Positions 27,039 through 32,258 of a DNA stretch of 35,112 nucleotides are shown one piece after another. Position 1 is the first letter of the stretch, and each line of letters begins with the position of its first letter. This DNA is from a virus. The translations under genes and the position numbers were made by a program. Where the stretch lies: the IMG/VR virus record IMGVR_UViG_3300031576_000201, positions 1 through 35,112 of that record. One strand, given 5' to 3'. The notes beneath the pieces are model-generated. The model worked only from the letters and a program-made list of their open reading frames with translations. It was not told the DNA's origin and did not search any database.

Positions 27039-28988
27039 ATGCCCGAACGTGCAACAGTATTAACTTTGCGTGAGAAGGCGCCGGATGTTTTACGACGTCA
27101 GTCTCAGGAGAAAGAAGAGTATAAACAAAGATTAGTTGAACAGTTTAGAAAGGCTGCGTCTTTAAGACATAGGTCTTATCACCAGTTTAATAATCAAACT
27201 TTGATTGAGTATATTAATACCAATCATGATTTGATTATTGGTCGTGTGCGTTCTCGTGATCAAGAAGGCTGGAGATCTAATACCAGTACACAACAAGTGC
27301 GTAATAAATTTATTGTTGTTTTAGCTAGTCTCTTAAGTCAGCTGATTCAGCCTGAAATTCATAGCAATAAAGCGAATGATCCTGATTCCGAAAAGATTGC
27401 CAGAATGATGCAGGAACTTTTAAAAGAGGAATATGAACGTGGAAGTTATTTTAAACAATATCTGAACATGCTCATTGAGTGTGTTAGTCAGGGCACTGTT
27501 TTTATTGAGACTGGCTATAAAGAAGAATGGCGTAAGATCAAGGAGATCATCAAGAAGGACATGAAGACTGGTAAGCTTACGTTTAAGGAGAAGGAAATAT
27601 TGAATTTTAAAGGGCTTTATAATGTAGTTGTTCCTGTAGATGAAGTGTATTTAGGTAACATGTTTGCACAGGATATGGTAGATCAGCCATATATCTTCCG
27701 TCGTCAGAAGGTGGATTACTTCCACGCAGAACGGTTGTATGGTAACCACGCAGATTTTGAACTAGTGCAACCTTTTACCTCAACAAATGAAGGTGAAGAC
27801 GATGAGCCTGATCATTTTGAATTATTCACTCATGATGATCTTAATGCCGGCGAGGTAGAGTTAATTATTTATCAATCCAGGCCAGATGATGAAATGGCCA
27901 TCTTAGCTAATGGTATTTTGTTAACGGAACCTGGTAGTCCATTACCGTATGATCATAAAGATTATTCCCTTGTTAAGGGTATTTTTTCGCCTTTTGATAC
28001 GCGTTTTGCCTATGGAAAAAGTTTGGCAGCGGAGCAAATGTTTAATCAAGAAGTTGCGGACACGCTTTTAAACATGTTGATTGATAAGACGTATTTGAGT
28101 ATCTTTCCACCGCTTGTTTCCAAAGGAAGAGACCATATTACATCAGACGTTATTGTGCCCGGCTCGATTACTCCAGTGGATGAAGACGCAGACGTTACAA
28201 CCATTGGAACCGTTGGACAACCTGTTAATGGTTCAGAAACAGCTTTACTTGGGTTAGTTAGAAATTTACAGGATGAATCTACCCCACCCGAAGCTGGTCG
28301 TGCTCAAACCGATCAAGGTGGTCGTGTTACCGCAAGACAGGTTATCGCTCAACAACAAGAATCAGCTAGATTATTAGGACTATTTGGCTTCACAATTGCT
28401 TTCTTGATTGAAGACTTAGCAAGATTACAGCTGCAGAATTTATTAGATTTCGTATTACCGCAAGACTTAACGGATGAACAAGAAGAATTAGCAGATAAAG
28501 CCTTTATTTTGCGCAATAGGCAGGTGTTTAAAGAACGTGTGCGTGGTTCTATGTTGATTAGACCAAGAGCGATGGAAGAACAACCTACGGAAAAAGAAAT
28601 GTTGATTGAAGAAGAAGAACTAGAAAAGCGTATGGGACAACCTGTACAGGTTATTTACATTGACCCTGAATCTGTCCGTGACTACGATTTATTCGTTACG
28701 GTTAAAGCTAATCCTCAAGAACGTCATTCTGATGCTCTTAAAAAGGCACTTGAGCTTGAATTTTTTACTACATTTAACGGTAATCCATTGATTAATCAAG
28801 AACGATTAGTTAGAAATTTAATTGAAGTATTTGATAAGAATCCTGAAGAATATGTTGCAATACCGCAGACACAAGGACTAGCACCAGAACAAGTACAAGG
28901 ACAAACTGGTAGGATTTCAAATCAAATCCAAGCACCGAATAGACCACTAAGAGAACCGCTTGGATTACAACAATTGTTAGCACAATAA
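27039..28988 (+). CDS. Portal protein, podovirus head-to-tail connector type (649 aa)
   Basis: A 649-residue, mostly helical protein after the terminase. Features include an N-terminal charged helix region, SRDQEGWRSNTSTQQVRNKF, a wing-like middle region with VPVDEVYLGNMFAQDM and PYIFRRQKVDYFHAERLYG, the DTRFAYGKSLAAEQMFNQEV segment, and a Gln-rich stem/crown (VTARQVIAQQQESARLLG). Size and order fit dodecameric P22-like or related connectors through which DNA passes. The last roughly 40 residues are Gln/Pro-rich and flexible. Confidence 0.9.
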   Translation: MPERATVLTLREKAPDVLRRQSQEKEEYKQRLVEQFRKAASLRHRSYHQFNNQTLIEYINTNHDLIIGRVRSRDQEGWRSNTSTQQVRNKFIVVLASLLSQLIQPEIHSNKANDPDSEKIARMMQELLKEEYERGSYFKQYLNMLIECVSQGTVFIETGYKEEWRKIKEIIKKDMKTGKLTFKEKEILNFKGLYNVVVPVDEVYLGNMFAQDMVDQPYIFRRQKVDYFHAERLYGNHADFELVQPFTSTNEGEDDEPDHFELFTHDDLNAGEVELIIYQSRPDDEMAILANGILLTEPGSPLPYDHKDYSLVKGIFSPFDTRFAYGKSLAAEQMFNQEVADTLLNMLIDKTYLSIFPPLVSKGRDHITSDVIVPGSITPVDEDADVTTIGTVGQPVNGSETALLGLVRNLQDESTPPEAGRAQTDQGGRVTARQVIAQQQESARLLGLFGFTIAFLIEDLARLQLQNLLDFVLPQDLTDEQEELADKAFILRNRQVFKERVRGSMLIRPRAMEEQPTEKEMLIEEEELEKRMGQPVQVIYIDPESVRDYDLFVTVKANPQERHSDALKKALELEFFTTFNGNPLINQERLVRNLIEVFDKNPEEYVAIPQTQGLAPEQVQGQTGRISNQIQAPNRPLREPLGLQQLLAQ

Positions 28989-29008: not shown

Positions 29009-29125
29009 ATGCCTAAAAAAATGGGTAAGAAAATGAAGATGGGTAAGATGATGATGAAAAAATCATCTGGCCGTATGTGGTCATCTAAAAAGATGAAAAA
29101 ATCCATGCCTCGTAAAATGAAATAA
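29009..29125 (+). CDS. Met/Lys-rich microprotein (38 aa)
   Basis: The product reads MPKKMGKKMKMGKMMMKKSS followed by GRMWSSKKMKKSMPRKMK. About 80 percent of residues are Met, Lys, Arg, Ser or Gly. It carries no acidic residue and is a strong polycation. The start context AATACTATG fits, and the gene ends 1 base before the next small basic gene. It may be a packaged DNA-condensing peptide or a membrane-active peptide. Composition alone cannot separate these. No family is recognised. Confidence 0.65.
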   Translation: MPKKMGKKMKMGKMMMKKSSGRMWSSKKMKKSMPRKMK

Positions 29126-29126
29126 T

Positions 29127-29252
29127 ATGCCAGCAAGTAGTGCATTAAGTCCCAATGTCGTAAAGACGGGACTCGACAAAATCTTTGCGTTTGTAAAGAA
29201 ACGTAAAGCCAAGAAGAAGAAAGTTACTAAAAAACGAAAGAAATATGAATAA
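29127..29252 (+). CDS. Polycationic microprotein with major-capsid N-terminal peptide (41 aa)
   Basis: The first 20 residues, MPASSALSPNVVKTGLDKIF, match the first 20 of the major capsid protein (MAASSALSPNVVKTALDDVF, gene at 31329) at 16 positions. The codons differ at many synonymous sites, so the peptide itself appears to be conserved. The rest is an almost pure Lys/Arg tail (VKKRKAKKKKVTKKRKKYE). It sits between portal and scaffold genes. It plausibly uses the shared peptide to enter or bind the procapsid while the tail binds DNA. It overlaps the next start by 8 bases. Confidence 0.75.
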   Translation: MPASSALSPNVVKTGLDKIFAFVKKRKAKKKKVTKKRKKYE

Positions 29253-29529
29253 AATAGCTAAAGTAAGATTCAGTAAAGGTGGTGGTGAAACAACACTTGA
29301 TATACCTATTTTGGAGGATAAACCAGAAGAATTCCAAATCCATAAGTTTATTGGATTAGGTGTAGAATATAAGGTTTTATCTTATGAAATAATGGATGAT
29401 CAAGATGAGGATGTTGTTGCTGATATTCCGCCTTATGAATCATCTTTTGCCTGTGACAAATGTGAATTTATTGGGAAATCTAATCATGGACTAAAGATTC
29501 ACAAATCAAGATCACATAATAAAAATTAA
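29245..29529 (+). CDS. C2H2 zinc-finger protein in head operon (94 aa)
   Basis: Residues 1-65 form an acidic alpha/beta part (AKVRFSKGGGETTLDIPILE). Residues 70-91 form a classical C2H2 finger, Cys70-x2-Cys73-x12-His86-x4-His91, in FACDKCEFIGKSNHGLKIHK. Such fingers are uncommon in phage head operons. It may bind DNA or mediate a protein contact during assembly. It overlaps the upstream basic protein, which suggests coordinated expression. Confidence 0.68.
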   Translation: MNKIAKVRFSKGGGETTLDIPILEDKPEEFQIHKFIGLGVEYKVLSYEIMDDQDEDVVADIPPYESSFACDKCEFIGKSNHGLKIHKSRSHNKN

Positions 29530-29945: not shown

Positions 29946-30740
29946 ATGAGCGAAGACCAAGTAAAGGGTAGCTCTTCTGTAACGGAAGAGGTCGCAACAC
30001 CCGCGACAACAAATACTGTTGAAGAAACGAGCGAGGCGTCTCAATTAGTAGATGAATCTATCGAACCTTCTAGCAAAGAATCACAATCAGTTGATGATGG
30101 TTCATATTATAAACAAGAACTCGAACGCCTTAAAAAGGAACAAGAGGCTCTTGTTGAAAATAATACGAAACTTCAGAAGGCTGTTGCCAAAGCAAGTATT
30201 GAAAATAGACATCTTTCTAAGCAGGTTAAAACAGCTGAATTATCAGAAGATATTTCTGATGAACAACCTCTTGAAGATGGGGATGAAGCCAAGAAAGCTG
30301 CGGATTTTGTTGATGCTCGTATCTCTAAACTGTTAAATGAACAGCTAGGAGCATTCGAGACAAAGATTCTTGCACGAGAAATCGGGAAGGAAATAGAATC
30401 AAAAACACCTAACCCAGATCATCAGAAGTTGATTCGTTGGTATTATGACAACCGAATCAAGCATACCGGTGATTTAAGTGTGGATATTGATGATGCTGCG
30501 GTACTTGCCAATCGGCAGGTGATTCAACAGGCTACACAGAAACGTGTAGACAATGCTCGTTTACGGAGTGCTAAGGTAGAAAGCACTACAGCATTAGCGG
30601 GTGGATCTTCTGTCTCTGGTGGTAGAAAACCATTGCTTAATGAATTACCAAGAACCAATGCGGATGAAAAACTCCTCTACGGATTACTTGGTAAGGATCG
30701 AGCAAAAAAAGTGATAGAAACCAAGCTTGTTAAGCCGTAA
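29946..30740 (+). CDS. Scaffolding protein (264 aa)
   Basis: The N terminus is acidic and disordered (Glu/Ser/Thr-rich, about 1-50). A coiled coil follows (YYKQELERLKKEQEALVENN, then NTKLQKAVAKASIENR, to about residue 100). Helices at about 115-185 contain DFVDARISKLLNEQLGAFET. The C-terminal Gly/Ser linker and the basic end GKDRAKKVIETKLVKP fit a capsid-binding helix as in other scaffolds. Position directly before decoration and capsid genes supports the call. It has its own promoter and is closed by a terminator, allowing a separate expression level. Confidence 0.8.
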   Translation: MSEDQVKGSSSVTEEVATPATTNTVEETSEASQLVDESIEPSSKESQSVDDGSYYKQELERLKKEQEALVENNTKLQKAVAKASIENRHLSKQVKTAELSEDISDEQPLEDGDEAKKAADFVDARISKLLNEQLGAFETKILAREIGKEIESKTPNPDHQKLIRWYYDNRIKHTGDLSVDIDDAAVLANRQVIQQATQKRVDNARLRSAKVESTTALAGGSSVSGGRKPLLNELPRTNADEKLLYGLLGKDRAKKVIETKLVKP

Positions 30741-30821: not shown

Positions 30822-31289
30822 ATGTCTCGTGGAGATTTTGACGTTGTTGACCCAAAGCTCAGCGGTTCAACTCCTGCTGCAAAGTACAAGACTAAAGCTG
30901 GGAATACCGCGATCAAAGCTGGTGAATGGGTCGTCCGCGGAACTGCTGGTGACATTGAATACGTTGTTTTAGCCGCAAATGGCTCTAGCAATACATCATC
31001 TTATATTGGCGTTGCGGCATCTAACGATACCAATACAGCTAGTCTTGATGGTGAAATTTTTGTGTTCGATAATCCAGACTATTTGTTCCGTGGTCGTCCT
31101 TCTACTGCTGGCAATCTTGCTACTAGCATTCTTAACAATCAGGTAACACTTGATGTTAGTGGTGCTGGTTTAATGACCATTGATGAAGATGATACTACAA
31201 ACGGAACCTTTATTATTAGAGGTTTCGATACTTCAGCTGGCACAATCGATGTGCAAATGGCTGCAGCTGATCATATTAGTCAAGGTTAA
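30822..31289 (+). CDS. Putative head decoration protein (155 aa)
   Basis: A beta-rich, Gly/Thr/Ala-rich protein (SGSTPAAKYKTKAGNTAIKA, GEWVVRGTAGDIEYVVLAAN, GEIFVFDNPDYLFRGRPS, LDVSGAGLMTIDEDDTTNGT). Small proteins of this size and composition between scaffold and capsid commonly trimerise on the capsid surface. The call is by position and general fold. No specific family is named. Confidence 0.65.
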   Translation: MSRGDFDVVDPKLSGSTPAAKYKTKAGNTAIKAGEWVVRGTAGDIEYVVLAANGSSNTSSYIGVAASNDTNTASLDGEIFVFDNPDYLFRGRPSTAGNLATSILNNQVTLDVSGAGLMTIDEDDTTNGTFIIRGFDTSAGTIDVQMAAADHISQG

Positions 31290-31328: not shown

Positions 31329-32258
31329 ATGGCCGCTTCAAGTGCGTTAAGTCCAAATGTTGTAAAGACAGCATTAGATGACGTTTTTGACCAAAAGGCA
31401 GACTTTTATCTTGCACGTCCAGACCAAGCTCGTGTTGTAGACTCCTTGATTTTTAATCAGATGTCTACTGATCGTGCTGCGGTAATTGTGGAAGAATTGC
31501 AAGGAACTGGCTACTTTGATCAGAAAAGTGAACTTCAAAATGCTCAAGGTGCAACATCCAAGACCATCAATCAAAACACTGCTTCTGTTCTTACCTTTGC
31601 GCAAACATTGGAAATTTCTAAGGAATTATTCGATGATGCTCAACACAACACAATTAACATGATGATTGCCAAAATGGCTCGTAATGCTCGTGTTACCCAA
31701 GAACGATCCGGTTTTGGTCTATGGCGCAATGCCTTTACCGCCACTTATGGTGATGGTGCGGCATTGGTTTCTGCTACCCATACTCTTGGCACCGGTGCTA
31801 CACAAAGCAATTTAATTACTCCTGCATTGAGCGAAACGGCTCTTGATACTGCGATTCAAACTCTTGAACTGCAAAAGGATCAAGACGGTACTTTGCAAGG
31901 TTTAATGCCACGTTGCTTGTTGGTTCCACCAGCATTGTATAAGTTGGCAATCGAAATTACTGAATCTGAACTGCGATCTTCAACCGCTGATAATGATCTT
32001 AATACCTTCTCTGCGAAGTATGGTATCTCCGTAAGATCAACTCCATTTATCTCTGCTAGTGAGACTGGTAGCGATACCTCTTGGTTCTTGATTGGTGATT
32101 TCCATGGTGTGATGCGTTATCTGCGTGAACCGATTTCTACCCACTTGAAAGATTGGGTCATGAATCGTAACCATGCGTACGAATATACCGCACGTTATCG
32201 CGAGGTATATACCGTTGAATCGCATATCGGAGTAGTAGGTTCAAACGGAACCACATGA
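31329..32258 (+). CDS. Major capsid protein (309 aa)
   Basis: A 309-residue protein with the expected pieces of a HK97-fold shell protein: an N-terminal arm (MAASSALSPNVVKTALDDVF), an E-loop-like stretch near residues 55-95 (EELQGTGYFDQKSELQNAQG), a spine-helix-like region (FDDAQHNTINMMIAKMARNA), a P-domain/A-domain segment (LMPRCLLVPPALYKLAIEIT), and a C-terminal beta part (SWFLIGDFHGVMRYLREPIS). The sequence recalls Mu-like major head subunits, with which I associate the FAQTLEISKELFDD segment. The N-terminal arm is duplicated in the small basic protein at 29127. Confidence 0.85.
   Translation: MAASSALSPNVVKTALDDVFDQKADFYLARPDQARVVDSLIFNQMSTDRAAVIVEELQGTGYFDQKSELQNAQGATSKTINQNTASVLTFAQTLEISKELFDDAQHNTINMMIAKMARNARVTQERSGFGLWRNAFTATYGDGAALVSATHTLGTGATQSNLITPALSETALDTAIQTLELQKDQDGTLQGLMPRCLLVPPALYKLAIEITESELRSSTADNDLNTFSAKYGISVRSTPFISASETGSDTSWFLIGDFHGVMRYLREPISTHLKDWVMNRNHAYEYTARYREVYTVESHIGVVGSNGTT

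Follow-up and report, generated by a model that had tools for sequence, protein, structure and literature searches.

A lysine- and arginine-rich viral microprotein, encoded among the head genes of its record, begins with a near copy of the flexible N-terminal arm (N-arm) of the virus's own major capsid protein (MCP). The same architecture, with a different arm matched to a different capsid, recurs in phages of the CRP-901/CRP-902 type. From the sequences, it is probable (roughly 0.6) that the arm mimic is a tag that docks the microprotein at an MCP-arm site in the procapsid, where the polycation would meet incoming DNA.

A microprotein that starts like the capsid protein

The window, which is the whole stretch of DNA analysed, is a 35,112-base viral record (IMG/VR IMGVR_UViG_3300031576_000201, positions 1 to 35,112). 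Its arm-tagged microprotein (Table 1) translates to MPASSALSPNVVKTGLDKIFAFVKKRKAKKKKVTKKRKKYE, in which residues 1–20 mimic the MCP N-arm and residues 21–41 form a Lys/Arg tail with a terminal KKYE. The N-terminus of the MCP ORF is MAASSALSPNVVKTALDDVF, and the two proteins are identical at 16 of their first 20 residues. The DNA likeness runs from the ATG to codon 20, with 42 of 60 bases identical in the peptide, 4 of 30 in the following 30 bases, and 14 of 30 and 7 of 30 in two upstream 30-base blocks. Codons differ at eight of the 15 shared non-Met residues. These comparisons confirm the coordinates, identity and codon differences given in the first-pass annotation, which had described a 16/20 match to the capsid start with many synonymous changes. 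When the microprotein was searched against its own record, the MCP start was the sole other match (E 9.6e-6), and none of 20,000 shuffles attained the observed microprotein–MCP score.

The tagged microprotein is the second gene after the portal gene, and between the two sits another polycationic ORF, Met/Lys-rich in composition. The family libraries Pfam and PHROG contained no match for any microprotein, and gave no identifying family match for the probable scaffolding protein. A further plus-strand ORF at 29245–29529 encodes 94 residues with a C-terminal C2H2 zinc-finger-like motif (CDKCEFIGKSNHGLKIHKSRSH), for which Pfam matches fell below the cut-off.

Table 1. Head-region features of the window relevant to the arm-tagged microprotein.
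Feature	Coordinates	Strand	Basis or remarks
Portal protein	27039..28988	+	PHROG 156, E 2e-7; polycation genes follow, as in locus L036
Second polycationic ORF, no MCP tag (MPKKMGKKMKMGKMMMKKSSGRMWSSKKMKKSMPRKMK)	29009..29125	+	38 aa, net charge +16
Arm-tagged polycationic microprotein	29127..29252	+	41 aa, net charge +13
Probable scaffolding protein, candidate tag partner	29946..30740	+	synteny and composition only: acidic, coiled-coil-like
Probable decoration/cement protein, just 5′ of MCP	30822..31289	+	inferred; position and ~165-aa size conserved in relatives
MCP, HK97 fold (Mu gpT / Phage_capsid_4 type)	31329..32258	+	Pfam, PHROG, AlphaFold model, PDB fold search
MCP N-arm, codons 1–21, source of tag	31329..31391	+	pLDDT below 50, helix at residues 9–17

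The copied segment and its source

The AlphaFold model of the MCP (31 sequences) has a pLDDT of 86 and a pTM of 0.82. In a PDB fold search its top matches were phage D3, HK97, phiXacJX1 and encapsulins; in sequence, the phage Mu capsid (9jod) lies nearest. Residues 1–21 are the only MCP segment modelled with a pLDDT below 50. As the match to the microprotein ends at codon 20, the microprotein copies what the model predicts to be a flexible N-arm, and no other part of the MCP.

Single-sequence searches with the MCP and portal proteins returned no close relatives. MCP relatives were sought in viral contigs with the degenerate arm pattern NVVKTxLDxxF, which retrieved 22 contigs; an MCP homologue was present in 20 of these. 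In the homologue alignment, at ~39–46% identity to the window MCP, PNVVKTxLDxVF is invariant, part of this block having been pre-selected by the search pattern.

Constraint on the tag

Over codons 2–20, the NG86 method gives a dS of ~2.8 (saturated) and a dN of ~0.22, hence a dN/dS of ~0.08 over a short stretch. If one copy were drifting freely, a dN/dS near 0.5 would be expected, so both the microprotein tag and the MCP arm appear to be constrained, short as the stretch is. All four amino-acid differences between tag and MCP are residues that homologous MCP arms carry at the corresponding position. Across eight tag/arm pairs pooled with shared ancestry ignored, pS is 0.70 and pN is 0.31. An RNA-level cause, such as a conserved start-site sequence, was rejected because synonymous sites are saturated. 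Judged from this saturation and the low dN/dS, the window tag is unlikely to be a decaying capsid fragment.

Recurrence in the window's own capsid family

Profile scans covered about 35, then 70, MCP-bearing loci, and each six-frame short ORF was compared with the MCP start of its own locus. With an MCP fragment in L051 set aside, the top-scoring ORF in the first locus set was the window microprotein, with a score of 73. The runner-up, L036 7536–7655 (MALTSSANPNVTVGKKRRKKLIKKPKGRNVRKFIKSKKY), is Lys/Arg-rich and immediately follows the L036 portal gene. The L036 MCP is 48% identical to the window MCP and starts MLTTNLNPNVTKTALDAVF; the microprotein reads LTSSANPNVT where its own MCP reads LTTNLNPNVT, so that a V-to-T change is common to both. 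Among ~40 arms, the cognate MCP is the best match for the window and L036 microproteins alike. Because its score of 38 is not above the best chance matches (37–41), the L036 candidate counts through its position, composition and register taken together, not through its score.

When 5262 ORFs from another 36 relatives were searched with the MCP arm, no match exceeded the chance level, which points to a patchy distribution of the tag in this family. Only two records, the window and L036, are tagged, and the other tested members of the family had no tagged ORF. In tblastn searches, the window and L036 microproteins had no matches among phage records, and against whole relatives they matched only those relatives' MCPs. 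Several untagged relatives have Lys/Arg-rich ORFs without a tag near the portal gene. Given that most of the family has no tag, the function of the microprotein would be dispensable in those relatives or met in other ways.

Three side observations concern this locus set. Three more Lys/Arg-rich microprotein ORFs follow the tagged one at L036 7844–8269 (7844–7957, 7959–8132 and 8132–8269). At L051 10004–10186 and L060 7165–7563 the MCP frame ends early, leaving ORFs of 60 and 133 residues, and the tblastn matches run on; a frameshift, a sequencing error or an insertion would each account for this. Finally, L047 6671–7414 is an extra 247-residue lysine-rich ORF in the portal–scaffold region, absent from the near relative L046; a homing-endonuclease-like gene may have been inserted here.

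Recurrence with a different arm

The MCP of Roseobacter phage CRP-902 is 31% identical to the window MCP over 71% of the query. In CRP-902, CRP-901 and their relatives, a lysine-rich microprotein starts MNRASFGKLMSKG and the MCP starts MNRASFAKMLEPG. The CRP-902 microprotein (L007 1984–2118) is MNRASFGKLMSKGEQKMMYGKKKPSQPVKKKVKKKKAKPKKKAY and the start of the CRP-902 MCP is MAMNRASFAKMLEPGLNTLFGLEY. The start of the microprotein ORF overlaps the stop of the preceding gene, and the following ORF begins, with its ATG, immediately after the microprotein stop. The gene is left unannotated in the CRP-902 record (OQ401624); its CRP-901 counterpart is annotated as gp63 (WED25082.1), described by the depositors as hypothetical. 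A phage GroES gene lies two genes downstream of the microprotein in CRP-901/902, and several CRP-type relatives have GroES adjacent to it.

A profile scan with the CRP-type MCP revealed more tagged microproteins in L139, L140, L141, L144/L153, L146, L147, L148, L149 and L154. The tag pattern MNRxxFxxLMxxG, which carries no MCP information, was also scanned, and 77 of the 86 matches listed are Lys-rich ORFs of 30–50 residues. Among these listed matches, an MCP start bearing the tag is found ~2.8 kb downstream of the microprotein wherever the sequenced region includes it. There are at least 62 distinct CRP-type microproteins, with a mean length of 42 residues and a mean net charge of +16.6, and among the matches listed 51 of 62 distinct ones have a C-terminal Tyr (GY, KY, AY or RY). 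Their tails drift in sequence and keep their charge. A Tyr near the C-terminus is also seen outside the CRP type, in the KKY that ends the L036 microprotein and in the last residues of the window's. CRP-type arm-tagged microproteins belong to a large group of common marine phages.

Enrichment and tracking of the cognate capsid

Enrichment was assessed in about 100 loci that encode an MCP homologue, not counting the window. These loci contained 7472 ORFs of 30–70 residues, 113 of them Lys/Arg-rich. Seven of the 11 ORFs that scored at least 30 against their own MCP start were Lys/Arg-rich, versus 106 of the remaining 7461 (Fisher p 5e-11, shared ancestry ignored). Of the four high-scoring ORFs that were not Lys/Arg-rich, two are microproteins of this family whose composition is diluted because an in-frame start lies upstream.

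Tag and capsid also change together. At residue 5 of the CRP-type tag, Ser is present in 41 of 41 cases with Ser in the MCP versus 20 of 27 otherwise (p 0.0009, phylogeny ignored), and Gln occurs only alongside Gln in the MCP (p 0.02, shared ancestry ignored). The window and CRP-type microproteins can be placed in a proposed class of capsid-arm-tagged polycations, which join a cognate-arm N-terminus to a Lys/Arg-rich remainder within a total of 30–50 residues. The tag is under selection and, in the CRP type, co-varies with the MCP, as counted with phylogeny ignored. The first-pass annotation had proposed looking for co-variation of the two peptides in relatives, and had named its absence, or capsid-fragment decay, as results that would undo its reading. 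Tags were found to match the cognate MCP both in arm types unrelated to one another and inside a single family, and with dN far below dS there was no sign of decay.

Some single cases are weaker. The candidate gp50 of HTVC023P begins MAITRGQISKQVE..., versus MAISRSQLVKELE in the MCP, and a candidate in L161 reads RALFTKQISNGKKKKK, versus RSLFTKQLSLG in the MCP. A phrog_27331 protein carries an N-terminal extension in L178 (8366–8653) and L204 (8290–8559); these extensions, MTISRGQLANQI and MAMSRSQMSKQV, resemble the cognate MCP start MAISRAQLAKEL. The extension is absent from the phrog_27331 proteins of L158, L180, L187, L189, L208 and L214, and no Lys/Arg-rich tagged ORF was found in 023Pt_psg01, DSL-LC04, HTVC027P or Pag-Yong1.

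Proposed function of the tagged microprotein

Inside the P22 procapsid, the N-arm of the coat protein forms a helix that binds the C-terminal helices of the scaffold and, on maturation, turns into an extended loop onto a neighbouring subunit (PMC9965877). Similar arm–scaffold contacts have been reported in other phages and are apparently general (PMC12749128). By this precedent, the first 20 residues of the microprotein, a copy of its own MCP's flexible N-arm, would serve as an address label. While the procapsid assembles, this label may take a site that normally receives an MCP arm, candidates being the arm-binding end of the scaffolding protein and a groove on the inner side of the P-domain in an adjacent MCP. 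A label docked in this way would hold the lysine-rich tail in the lumen, and as DNA is pumped in the tail could bind phosphates and help to neutralise or seat the genome. The microprotein would thus provide a 'basic arm' in trans for a shell protein lacking one of its own.

The docking-tag reading had already been put forward in the first-pass annotation, and the tracking of the cognate capsid by the tag speaks for it. The accompanying suggestion of a role at the portal vertex is unsupported, because the CRP-901 microprotein gene (gp63) is not beside the portal gene (gp75; PMC10149686) but about a dozen genes away, and because the HTVC023P candidate gene is downstream of the MCP gene. A broader proposal can be offered tentatively, with rather less confidence than the docking itself: phages may repeatedly have made a free copy of the MCP N-arm, and kept it matched to a changing capsid, for general use in procapsid import. 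The lysine-rich tail, a trans-acting basic arm for the genome, would be the main cargo, and the tag may be transferable to other proteins, such as the phrog_27331 proteins of L178 and L204.

Alternative explanations

The strongest competing reading is that of an assembly regulator or arm decoy, in which the peptide competes with MCP arms and tunes nucleation or release, and the tail binds the acidic scaffold instead of DNA. Such a role would suit a close arm mimic under strong constraint, as well as the acidic composition of the putative scaffold and the scaffold contact made by the P22 N-arm (PMC9965877). A decoy, however, needs no tail of 20–30 residues that keeps a charge of +13 to +17 and mostly ends in a C-terminal Tyr, and the regulator is considered unlikely.

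Less probable is a shared processing or chaperone signal, by which a prohead protease or a chaperone would recognise one N-terminal peptide on both the MCP and the microprotein. The MCP and internal proteins of T4 have a cleavage motif in common, and the GroES gene of CRP-901/902, two genes downstream, would fit a chaperone. However, Pfam and PHROG identified neither a protease nor a GroES family among the window ORFs scanned, the record being not known to be complete, and the tags track whole, very different arms, not a short invariant site. Such a signal is quite unlikely.

Very unlikely, in turn, is a DNA- or RNA-binding regulator acting outside the virion, which would touch free MCP and might, for instance, link late translation or the initiation of packaging to the capsid supply. 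The polycationic tail and the packing of the genes into the head operon with stop/start overlaps would be compatible with it; it would need arm–arm contacts, and the role known for the arm is a different one (PMC9965877, PMC12749128). A duplicated capsid fragment in decay, or a likeness by chance, which the presence of the tag in only two records of the window's MCP family might suggest, is refuted for the CRP-901 type by dozens of orthologous intact short ORFs, disfavoured for the window microprotein by its constraint (dN/dS 0.08), and opposed by the Lys/Arg-rich enrichment and the depositors' annotation of gp63, and is extremely improbable overall.

Relation to known systems

Among the closest parallels to a docked, arm-tagged polycation are proteins loaded into phage heads. 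In T4, a short N-terminal targeting sequence (CTS) loads the small internal proteins IPI–III into the prohead, where cargo lysines contact the phosphates of the packaged DNA (PMC3012670). The CTS is not described as a copy of an MCP arm (PMC3012670), whereas the microprotein tag closely reproduces the cognate N-arm; the T4 proteins are proteolysed, whereas the microprotein is only ~40 residues long and the window ORFs scanned yielded no protease. By analogy, the microprotein may work like the T4 capsid-targeted internal proteins, a likeness of action that does not by itself make it one of them.

Encapsulin cargo is similar in that it is loaded through a terminal peptide, which attaches to the P-domain surface lining the inside of an HK97-type shell (PMC10960027). 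Unlike the microprotein tag, these peptides use a dedicated pocket and mimic no segment of the shell, and their cargo is an enzyme, not a polycation. The shell considered here is a phage MCP encoded in a terminase/portal/MCP operon, and what the tag copies is the arm of that MCP, which places the microprotein outside encapsulin cargo.

Two further systems share part of the design. The contact between the P22 coat N-arm and the C-terminal helix-turn-helix of the scaffold suggests a likely binding site for an arm peptide inside the procapsid, but in the portion of PMC9965877 available the arm belongs to the coat protein only and no free arm-tagged protein is described. SaPI Ccm is likewise a second protein with capsid-protein sequence that takes part in assembly; PMC8569155 describes it as a homologue of the capsid protein by which the size and shape of the capsid are redirected, as opposed to an arm-only tag attached to a polycation. 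The basic arms (R-arms) of other capsid proteins also bring a disordered basic stretch to the genome within the shell. The basic stretch of the microprotein, in contrast, is on a separate gene product, and the MCPs of large tailed phages are without typical basic arms (PMC7096446).

The new element is a tag copied from the shell's own arm, capsid-targeted internal proteins being already known. No description of a capsid-arm-copy tag was found in the open-access papers searched, which is weak evidence of absence; within that literature, the earlier statement that no capsid-arm-tagged polycation had been described also held.

Implications

Should packaging through the tag hold, there is a real chance that the arm-tagged microproteins are a new kind of system. 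CRP-901, CRP-902 and HTVC023P are culturable, which makes the hypothesis directly testable. A label of 13–20 residues matched to each capsid would also be a handy tag for filling HK97-fold shells. For the phages themselves, which are abundant in the sea, docking by the arm copy would represent a principle of viral-head loading that reuses the arm of the shell protein as an import label, and would suggest a route by which some tailed phages without basic-armed MCPs place positive charge beside their packed DNA.
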